From a bacterium (GTDB taxonomy: Bacteria > Hydrothermota > Tepidihabitantia > Tepidihabitantales > Tepidihabitantaceae): a DNA stretch of 43,811 nt. Positions 19,533-23,038 of this stretch are shown in pieces. Where the stretch lies: NCBI GenBank assembly GCA_035505375.1, contig DATJQV010000046.1, positions 1 to 43,811 of the forward strand. Reading direction: 5' to 3'. How positions within the stretch are numbered: position 1 is the stretch's first letter; each line of letters begins with the position of its first letter. Position numbers and translations under genes: made by a program. The notes beneath the pieces were generated by a model. It ran no database searches, was not told where the DNA came from, and saw only the letters and a list, made by a program, of their open reading frames with translations.

Positions 19533-19697
19533 CTATGGCCGGGCTGCCCGGTGATAGGTCGCGGCCTTATGCTTGGTTTTCTCCTGTGCAGGTTCCTCCA
19601 TGCACGAGTCGAAATAGCGGCACTGGGAGCAGCAGTCTTCGGACAGTTTGCTCTTGGCCCGGCAAAGCTCGTAGCCAGAGCAAGCACGACAACACAT
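19533..19697 (-). CDS. Cysteine-rich microprotein with duplicated CCx2Cx5C knuckle
   Basis: A 54-residue protein with a strong ribosome-binding site (AAAGGAGG, about 9 nt before the ATG). It contains eight cysteines as two copies of the same spacing: C2-C3-x2-C6-x5-C12 and C22-C23-x2-C26-x5-C32. A charged, His-containing tail follows. The pattern suggests zinc or Fe-S binding by two knuckles; it has no signal peptide. I know no named family with this pattern. It lies between the propeller gene and the agmatinase-like gene, about 97 nt from the latter's stop. Confidence 0.75.
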   Translation of the reverse strand: MCCRACSGYELCRAKSKLSEDCCSQCRYFDSCMEEPAQEKTKHKAATYHRAARP

Positions 19698-19793
19698 GGT
19701 CGGTTACCTCCTTTGCGGATTGCTGTGCGGAGAATGAGCGGACGCGTCTCACGGAGTTCCGACGCGGGCGCTCCTGATACATTCTGAGTTGGT

Positions 19794-20627
19794 TTATGCG
19801 GCGCTGGTCAGCAGCAGGCCGAGCTCGCGCACCAGTTCCGCCGCGGCGGCAGCGCCGGCCGACGGCTGCATCGTCCTCGGGCAGAATTCAACGAGGTCGC
19901 AGCCGACGACCTTGAGGCCGCTGAGCCCGGCGAGCGAGAGCGCGAGGTCCCGGTAGGAACATCCGCCCGGCTCCGGCGTCTGCACGTCCGGCATTACGCC
20001 CGGGTCGAGAACGTCAATGTCCAGTGTTACGTAGACCGGACGGGTCCCGATTGCTTCGCGCACGCGTGCGACAGGAGCGAGCACCTCGAATGGGAAGACG
20101 TTCGACTCTGACATCTCCGAGGCCTGTGAGAAGGAACGGATGCCGAGCTGGAACAGACGCTGGCGGGAAATAGAGTCGAGAACACGGGCCATGGCCGTCG
20201 CGTGGCAGGTCCGCTCGCCGAGGAAGTCCTGGCGCAGGTCGGAGTGGGCGTCGTACTGCACCACGCACAGGTCCGGATGCCGCCTTGCCAGCGCCGCGAC
20301 GATCGGCGGGCTGACGGTGTGCTCGCCGCCGATGGCAAGCTGGCGTTTGTTCTGCGAGAGATGCCGGCTGGTAGTGTCGGCGATGAGTTCCAGCGGTGCG
20401 GCCGCGGTCGGAAACGTGAATCCCAGATTACCGGAGTCGTGGACAGCGATGCCGGTGATGTCACGCCTCTGGTAGGGGCTGAATGACTCGATGTTGTCCG
20501 CCGCCACGCGGATTGCGTCCGGGCCGAACCGCGCGCCGGGGACAAAAGAGCTCGTTCGGTCAAGCGGCATTCCGACGATCACGACATTAGCGTCAGAAGC
20601 GCCCGCCGTTGCGTAGTAGAACGCCAT
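19794..20627 (-). CDS. Agmatinase/arginase-family ureohydrolase
   Basis: A binuclear-Mn ureohydrolase, 277 residues. All metal-ligand motifs are present: GGEHT, DAHSD (with DLRQDF and TCHATAMARV behind it) and DIDVLDP. The TCHAT segment is closer to agmatinases (SpeB) than to arginases, so the likely reaction is agmatine to putrescine and urea, though formiminoglutamase or guanidinobutyrase activity is possible. ATG at 20627 is chosen because the only upstream start, a TTG at 20666, coincides with the -35 box of the promoter. It diverges from lpxB. Confidence 0.88.
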   Translation of the reverse strand: MAFYYATAGASDANVVIVGMPLDRTSSFVPGARFGPDAIRVAADNIESFSPYQRRDITGIAVHDSGNLGFTFPTAAAPLELIADTTSRHLSQNKRQLAIGGEHTVSPPIVAALARRHPDLCVVQYDAHSDLRQDFLGERTCHATAMARVLDSISRQRLFQLGIRSFSQASEMSESNVFPFEVLAPVARVREAIGTRPVYVTLDIDVLDPGVMPDVQTPEPGGCSYRDLALSLAGLSGLKVVGCDLVEFCPRTMQPSAGAAAAAELVRELGLLLTSAA

Positions 20628-20638
20628 GCGCTCAAGCC

Positions 20639-20666
20639 AGCTTACCAGCCCCGGCCTCGAAGTCAA
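20639..20666 (-). promoter_or_regulatory. Promoter of the agmatinase-like gene, leaderless type
   Basis: On the minus strand TTGACT (20661-20666), 16-bp spacer, TAAGCT (20639-20644). ATG lies 11 nt downstream, with no Shine-Dalgarno. Confidence 0.65.
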
Positions 20667-21916: not shown

Positions 21917-23038
21917 ATGGCACATGCATATACACCTGGTTTGAAAGTGACGGCACGGACGCTGGTCAAGAAGCAGCGGCGGCTGCCGTTGCCCGGCGAG
22001 ACCCTGGTCGACAAAGGCCACAAAGTGAAGGGCGACGACGTTGTTGCCCGTACCGCATTGCCCGGAAACGTCCAAACGGTGAATGTGGCCGGACTGCTCG
22101 GGGTCCCGCCCGAGGACGTGCCGAGCTTGATGACAAGGAAGTCAGGCGACGCCGTGACCAAGGATGAGGTGATGGCCTTGTCCAAGGGCTTCTTTGGCCT
22201 GTTCAAGTCCGAGGTGAAGGCGCCGGTTTCCGGTACGGTCGAGAACGTTTCCTCCATCACCGGGCAGGTCATTCTGCGCGAGCCGCCGGAGCCGGTCCAG
22301 GTTGACGCGTACATCGAGGGTACTGTAAGCGACGTGATTCCACGTGAGGGTGTCGTGGTCGAGACCGAGGCGAGCTTCGTGCAGGGCATCTTCGGGGTGG
22401 GCGGCGAGGTGCGGGGCGTCATCCGGATGATTGTCGACAAACCCGACGTGGTGGTGACCGCAGCCCTGATTCCGGACGACTGCAAAGGCCAGGTGCTGAT
22501 CGGCGGTTCCCTGGTCAAGTACGATGCGATTGAGAAGGCGGTGAAGCTCGGAGCCAAGGCGATCGTTGTCGGCGGCATCGAGGACGCGACCCTGCGTTCG
22601 TTCCTCGGGTACGACATCGGCGTGGCGATAACGGGCTCAGAGAAGAAGGGTCTGACCGTGGTGGCGACCGAGGGGTTCGGCGAGATGCGGATGGCGCAGC
22701 GGACGTTCGAGCTCTTGAAGTCGCTCGTGGGCAAGATGGCGTCGGTCAACGGCGCGACCCAGATACGGGCGGGCGTAATCCGGCCCGAGGTGATTGTGCC
22801 GGCCGATACCAAGCTCGGTGAACTCCCGCAGAGCTCGGCCGAGGGCGGGCTGGCACTGGGGATGCCGGTGCGGATTATCAGGCAACCGAACTTCGGCAAG
22901 ATCGGCAAGGTGACGAGCCTGCCGGTCGAACTTCAGACGATTGAGACCGAGGCGAAGGCACGCGTGCTCGAAGTGGAACTGGAAGACGGCAAACGAGTCC
23001 TGATGCCTCGTGCCAACGTCGAGATAATCGAGAGCTAG
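21917..23038 (+). CDS. Conserved-looking protein with barrel-sandwich and KOW-like segments
   Basis: A 373-residue protein without signal peptide or membrane segments. Residues ~90-125 (FKSEVKAPVSGTVENVS...GQVILRE) resemble a biotinyl/lipoyl-like barrel-sandwich hybrid. Residues ~185-230 have an alternating hydrophobic pattern with AKAIVVGGIED, and ~310-345 (MPVRIIRQPNFGKIGKVTSLP) look like a KOW motif. Such a combination suggests a scaffold, but the role is not known to me. Its stop is 3 nt before the PorV-like gene, so the two are cotranscribed. It may belong to envelope biogenesis. Confidence 0.7.
   Translation: MAHAYTPGLKVTARTLVKKQRRLPLPGETLVDKGHKVKGDDVVARTALPGNVQTVNVAGLLGVPPEDVPSLMTRKSGDAVTKDEVMALSKGFFGLFKSEVKAPVSGTVENVSSITGQVILREPPEPVQVDAYIEGTVSDVIPREGVVVETEASFVQGIFGVGGEVRGVIRMIVDKPDVVVTAALIPDDCKGQVLIGGSLVKYDAIEKAVKLGAKAIVVGGIEDATLRSFLGYDIGVAITGSEKKGLTVVATEGFGEMRMAQRTFELLKSLVGKMASVNGATQIRAGVIRPEVIVPADTKLGELPQSSAEGGLALGMPVRIIRQPNFGKIGKVTSLPVELQTIETEAKARVLEVELEDGKRVLMPRANVEIIES

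Follow-up and report, generated by a model that had tools for sequence, protein, structure and literature searches.

The CC gene, which encodes a 54-residue protein with two C-C-x2-C-x5-C boxes (the CC protein), belongs to a small-protein family from uncultured lineages that is real, conserved and, by searches of Pfam, NCBIfam, PHROGs and PDB sequences at the cut-offs applied, undescribed. It is near certain that both the gene and its family are genuine. The gene lies in the window, the stretch of 43,811 nucleotides analysed here, whose order corresponds to candidate division WOR-3; eight of the 11 named records that match loci of this order bear the WOR-3 name. Relatives occur in Omnitrophota and Auribacterota, and a sister family is conserved across part of Omnitrophota. 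Throughout the window's order the CC gene follows an agmatinase gene, and its product is very probably a metal-binding protein.

The CC frame reads from ATG to TGA, and its product, MCCRACSGYELCRAKSKLSEDCCSQCRYFDSCMEEPAQEKTKHKAATYHRAARP, begins MCCRACSGYELCRAKSKLSEDCCSQCRYFDSCMEEP and carries cysteines at positions 2, 3, 6, 12, 22, 23, 26 and 32, which is CC-x2-C-x5-C twice, all within the first 32 residues (Table 1). A first-pass annotation made from the DNA letters had reported a frame of this length with eight cysteines in two such boxes, preceded by a very good ribosome-binding site; translation of the minus strand confirms the former, and the Shine-Dalgarno sequence AAGGAGGT is present at 19706-19713. 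The same annotation described an exact internal duplication, which holds for the cysteine spacing and fails for the remainder, as none of the seven non-cysteine positions is identical between the two halves of the window protein. Over 43 aligned members, box-to-box identity averages 1.33 of 7, a value reached in 36 of 1000 permutations of the second-half positions, and this weak agreement outside the cysteines comes mainly from two residues ahead of the last cysteine, one aromatic and one acidic. No signal peptide was seen on inspection by eye, and the protein looks cytoplasmic and soluble.

Table 1. Features of the CC locus in the window.
Feature	Position	Strand	Evidence
CC gene (54-aa double C-C-x2-C-x5-C protein, CC protein)	19533..19697	minus	translation, homologues, purifying selection, stops in other frames
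Shine-Dalgarno AAGGAGGT of the CC gene	19706..19713	minus	sequence
First box, C2-C12 (CCRACSGYELC)	19662..19694	minus	four Cys invariant in 43/43
Second box, C22-C32 (CCSQCRYFDSC)	19602..19634	minus	translation, alignment, pattern scan
Charged C-terminal tail, 22 residues, net +5 over last 15	19536..19601	minus	charge count; basic-tail clade
Agmatinase (SpeB type), directly upstream of the CC gene, 96-nt gap, start codon uncertain	19794..20666	minus	TIGR01230, 229.5 bits (cut-off 174.3); upstream in 22/22

CC genes are conserved in the close relatives of the window's genome and across most of its order. All five other genomes of the genus that were searched, within a search of 100 relatives, keep the gene, with 76-96% identical products, so neither a lack of homologues nor a loss of the frame, the signs that the first-pass annotation named as counting against it, is seen there. 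A profile search of 147 genomes of the phylum places the CC gene in 22 of the 28 genomes of the order, a count that leaves out three weak matches (G025:C24, G005:C372 and G045); in the rest of the phylum only one weak match was found, that in G045 (E 0.0056), which has an internal stop. Values of dN/dS range from 0.05 to 0.26 in ten pairs among five genus members. At every one of the 22 loci of the order the CC frame is open; stops interrupt the other five frames in 22, 22, 12, 11 and 5 of them. In 19 of these loci an SD-like core is found in the 20 nt that precede the start, and in the other three (L047-L049) the CC start abuts the agmatinase stop, at 0-1 nt. The initial methionine and the eight cysteines are invariant in all 43 aligned proteins, drawn from three phyla. 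A short intergenic frame with no library match might be open by chance, and we give that reading virtually no credence: it is rejected by the conservation in 22 of 28 genomes, by the dN/dS values, by the stop counts, which leave CC as the only frame open at every locus, and by the relatives in two further phyla, and the full eight-cysteine DNA pattern, present once in the window, is absent from 100 dinucleotide shuffles. The homologues, the purifying selection and the open frame thus back the view that this is a short, easily missed, real gene.

The first-pass annotation's remark that no family of this form was known also stands. The window protein has no match in Pfam, NCBIfam or PHROGs, the family profile has none among PDB sequences at E<=1, and a literature search for this or a like protein found nothing relevant among the papers listed; for a possible parallel with the endonuclease III motif no paper was found, and the parallel is not used here. 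A phage or plasmid origin was rejected as far as tested: a viral scan gave at least 120 stretches, and the in-frame translations listed from 80 of them are cysteine-rich and of low complexity, none of them family-like, and a plasmid search with the acidic paralogue of G020 gave no match.

In WOR-3, the agmatinase gene is the constant partner of the CC gene. It immediately precedes the CC gene, on the same strand, at all 22 loci, as seen among the locus neighbours in 21 and through tblastn in the 22nd (L034), and the gap is 0-215 nt in the 21 loci measured. The gene beyond agmatinase is much less constant, and three f3 loci keep the agmatinase-CC pair while every other neighbour differs. The enzyme itself is present in 100 of the 147 phylum genomes, most of which have no detectable CC gene. 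Of the six order genomes that lack CC, four encode agmatinase (G007, G010, G011 and G015) and two do not (G014 and G018); no CC remnant was seen by eye behind agmatinase in those four, over 500 nt in three and over the 186 nt to the contig end in the fourth. Because no CC gene is detectable in these four genomes, or in most others of the phylum that encode agmatinase, agmatinase has no need of it. The pyruvoyl arginine decarboxylase PvlArgDC, which precedes agmatinase in the pathway, is encoded in 26 of the 28 order genomes, at loci other than that of CC. Elsewhere in the window, positions 21917-23038 encode a 373-aa protein with a weak match to the RnfC_N barrel (E 0.0014, below cut-off), to which no role is assigned.

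CC proteins fall into two types by the charge of their tails. Over the last 15 residues, 20 of the 43 proteins (the basic type) carry a net charge of +1 to +8, and the remaining 23 are neutral or negative there. The 20 basic-tail sequences form one clade (SH-aLRT 96) in a tree built from the cores alone, with tails excluded and few columns. The acidic type is present in all three phyla, is more widespread than the basic type and is probably the older. In six of the 22 order loci (L037, L038, L044, L046, L048 and L049) a second CC gene stands behind the first; the acidic type occurs alone in two (L050 and L021) and the basic type alone in 14, and the window's genus has the basic type only. Genome G022 (L047:7590-7800) has no acidic paralogue, whereas in G019 and G024, of the same genus, one follows the basic gene directly.

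Beyond the window's order, the CC family turned up only in Omnitrophota and Auribacterota when 84,980 genomes were scanned. The scan used an exact DNA pattern (MCCx2Cx5C, 4-14 residues, CCx2Cx5C) and is blind to other starts and spacings, among them the GTG start of the CC gene at L308. Its 35 stretches comprise 11 of WOR-3 type, 11 from Omnitrophota, one from Auribacterota and 12 dropped after translation as low-complexity or shortened (L081, L083, L086, L087, L093, L099, L102, L104, L106, L107, L109 and L111). A profile search of Omnitrophota gave matches at E<=0.001 in 23 of 384 genomes, 11 of which have the CC form by reading of the matches and the other 12 the sister form only; one match, L252 (G266), was left unaligned, its boxes lying outside the regular expression. 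The corresponding search of Auribacterota found CC in two of 44 genomes. The first reading of the window had included neither these relatives in two other phyla nor the agmatinase operon and the tandem acidic paralogue.

In both CC-bearing Auribacterota, the gene that follows on the same strand encodes PvlArgDC (PF01862, E 1e-59), which is a second, independent contact of CC with the arginine-agmatine-putrescine route. The Omnitrophota CC gene adjoins neither PvlArgDC nor agmatinase. Its usual upstream neighbour, near 10 of 11 loci, encodes a small exported protein of YGYGTVV...VDIEY type with a weak DUF5666 match (L306:7472-7864 and similar), and downstream lie a KamA-type radical-SAM gene and ATP-grasp genes in four of the 11 loci (one confirmed by Pfam) or DUF4912 and a GH57 enzyme in three others (again one confirmed by Pfam). 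Among the 15 CC-bearing genomes of the two phyla, PvlArgDC is present in 10, both Auribacterota included, and agmatinase in nine, neither Auribacterota having it; in CC-bearing Omnitrophota both enzymes are encoded away from CC, side by side in eight genomes. Since the Omnitrophota CC gene sits elsewhere, these neighbourhoods suggest a link to polyamines in two lineages and not in general.

The sister family, found in 21 of 145 Omnitrophota genomes, has the consensus CCExCQxYWTCETKWYRGExGEENICCPVCNYYxxC (alignment A6) and is related to the CC family with a profile-profile probability of 95.5 (E 1.4e-8). It shares the same two boxes and differs in a conserved 14-residue linker with KW..G, an N-terminal extension and other gene neighbours; the KW..G of the linker is invariant across its loci (L245-L250, L254, L256-L263, L265, L266 and L345-L363). 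Two members tested have no Pfam or NCBIfam match. In WOR-3 the sister profile finds no convincing member, three of its four matches being CC proteins and the fourth covering the second box only. An MFS gene commonly faces the sister gene in convergent orientation, and rnfC often lies divergently from it. A divergent double-box copy forms the C-terminal end of an AAA-type ATPase-like protein at L264:643-1638 (plus strand) and at L255 (minus strand), with AAA_22 confirmed for the L264 protein; the ATPase-like gene adjoins a tyrosine-kinase-like gene, in a cluster type recognised by eye.

Because eight invariant cysteines stand in a cytoplasmic-looking protein, metal binding by CC is very likely, and two metal sites are the most natural reading of the two boxes. 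The first-pass annotation called the boxes knuckles, a zinc label that may be wrong, as C-x2-C-x5-C recurs as a [4Fe-4S] motif. In Wbl proteins, C-x2-C-x5-C supplies [4Fe-4S] ligands within the motif CXnCX2CX5C (PMC7363131), a definition that the CC alignment (A5) also fits. In RseC, which belongs to the Rsx system, CX2CX5C is the core of an oxygen-sensitive [4Fe-4S] site (PMC11729352), and RPC6 carries a four-cysteine [4Fe-4S] site at its C-terminus (PMC8837262). The Wbl/WhiB proteins (PF02467) resemble CC as small soluble proteins that use C-x2-C-x5-C and one further cysteine as ligands; CC differs in having two boxes rather than one, directly adjacent C-C pairs and a shorter chain. The G[V/I]WGG motif of Wbl is absent from the window protein and the family consensus, and PF02467 stays below cut-off against the 43 members (three matched, best E 0.28, chance level). 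The N-terminal domain of RseC, from the Rsx/Rnf-linked SoxR-reducing system, has the same motif, with one box in a membrane protein, whereas CC looks soluble and has two.

In 34 of the 43 CC proteins the linker between the boxes is nine residues long, giving the spacing C3-x2-C6-x5-C12-x10-C23. A phmmer search of the PDB aligned these cysteines position for position with C287-C290-C296-C307 of RPC6 (stretch 287-307), which we take to be the ligands of its [4Fe-4S] cluster. At E 2.8 the match is not significant, so no homology to RPC6 is established, and since the linker is six residues in three members and 10 in six, RPC6-like spacing is not fixed in the family. The RPC6 and archaeal TFE-beta sites share the C-x2-C-x5-C-x10-C register with CC and differ in belonging to eukaryotic or archaeal transcription subunits and in lacking a second box. 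Taking this register together with the recurrence of C-x2-C-x5-C in Wbl and RseC, we lean slightly, by analogy, towards iron-sulfur rather than zinc. Two AlphaFold models are poor (pLDDT 62.8, pTM 0.34, and pLDDT 59.3) and disagree on secondary structure, Foldseek with the first of them found no fold, and we base no structural claim on them.

We tentatively propose that CC proteins are small metalloproteins of the cytoplasm with two sites each, that they form an undescribed family and that they serve as iron-sulfur accessory or regulatory partners of a polyamine step, a chain of suppositions that is unlikely to hold in every link. Each box would bind a single [4Fe-4S] cluster: C-x2-C-x5-C would provide three of the ligands, and one cysteine of a C-C pair the fourth. 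That pair may belong to the opposite box, in which case the fourth ligands would cross, as they do in two-cluster ferredoxins. The KamA-type radical-SAM gene behind some Omnitrophota CC copies and the rnfC gene beside the sister family, both of them settings of low-potential electrons, speak for this reading. CC, a small metal core with a charged tail, would be translated alongside a partner that it assists or regulates. In WOR-3 this partner would be the arginine to agmatine to putrescine step, and protein contact would let that enzyme's activity or stability track iron or redox status. Where a WOR-3 genome carries both copies, the basic-tail protein may associate with the acidic-tail one. 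A functional tie to polyamine synthesis, suggested by the gene neighbourhoods, is possible though doubtful. The fullest version is a long shot: two [4Fe-4S] clusters with crossed fourth ligands in a design independent of ferredoxins, an iron- or redox-sensing coupling of polyamine synthesis (agmatinase and pyruvoyl arginine decarboxylase) to iron-sulfur status, and a charge-matched basic/acidic heterodimer. If the boxes hold [4Fe-4S], CC would represent a two-cluster scaffold of minimal size that differs from ferredoxin. The agmatinase operon would then offer a concrete place to probe whether polyamine synthesis is linked to iron-sulfur status, a connection for which we know of no precedent.

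If the metal is zinc, CC would be one more small zinc protein, with one ion per box or with a zinc-ribbon-like C3/C6 plus C23/C26 site beside a C2/C12/C22/C32 site, acting as an adaptor that binds nucleic acid, ribosome or protein through its charged tail. We consider this a tenable reading that falls short of probable. The paired C-x2-C elements, the small size, the basic tail of the window's clade and the use of the sister domain as a C-terminal module of an AAA ATPase are consistent with it, yet zinc-ribbon and zinc-finger Pfam models match the window protein in no family and the 43 members at chance level only, C-x2-C-x5-C is documented in [4Fe-4S] sites, and proteins of the acidic form, 23 of the 43, would bind nucleic acid poorly. 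A peptide that buffers or stores several metal ions on its eight cysteines, in the manner of metallothionein and with no defined catalytic role, is in our judgement very unlikely despite the cysteine density and C-C pairs. Metallothioneins carry C-x-C repeats, which inspection finds absent from the window protein; moreover, the cysteine spacing inside the boxes is strictly fixed, an aromatic residue is conserved at the same place in both, and no recognised metal-resistance gene stands among the named neighbours.

Bacterial 2[4Fe-4S] ferredoxins have about 55 residues and eight cysteines in two equal boxes that arose by internal duplication, with the box motif CX2CX2CX3CP, and an acidic surface is typical of ferredoxins. 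CC shares the size, the eight cysteines and the duplicated boxes, and the acidic CC form has such a surface. CC could accordingly be imagined as a two-cluster mini-ferredoxin feeding KamA-type radical-SAM or Rnf-linked reactions, its agmatinase adjacency being inherited synteny only. Low-potential electron settings do occur near the relatives, with the KamA-type gene downstream of CC in a few Omnitrophota loci and the sister family divergent from rnfC, and RseC, a CX2CX5C iron-sulfur protein, is part of the Rsx system. We nevertheless judge this improbable: the boxes are CCX2CX5C, inspection of the sequence and of the alignment of 43 finds no CX2CX2CX3CP, no Pfam ferredoxin model matches the 43 members, the window's clade is basic, and to our knowledge the agmatinase and PvlArgDC reactions need no electrons.

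Two further observations concern the arginine-related genes of the order. The window's genome encodes pyruvoyl arginine decarboxylase twice on a single contig (G000:C83:32646-33179 and 56468-57001). In two genomes (L044:2064-3682 and L050), the genes immediately before agmatinase are McsA-like and McsB-like (arginine kinase type).
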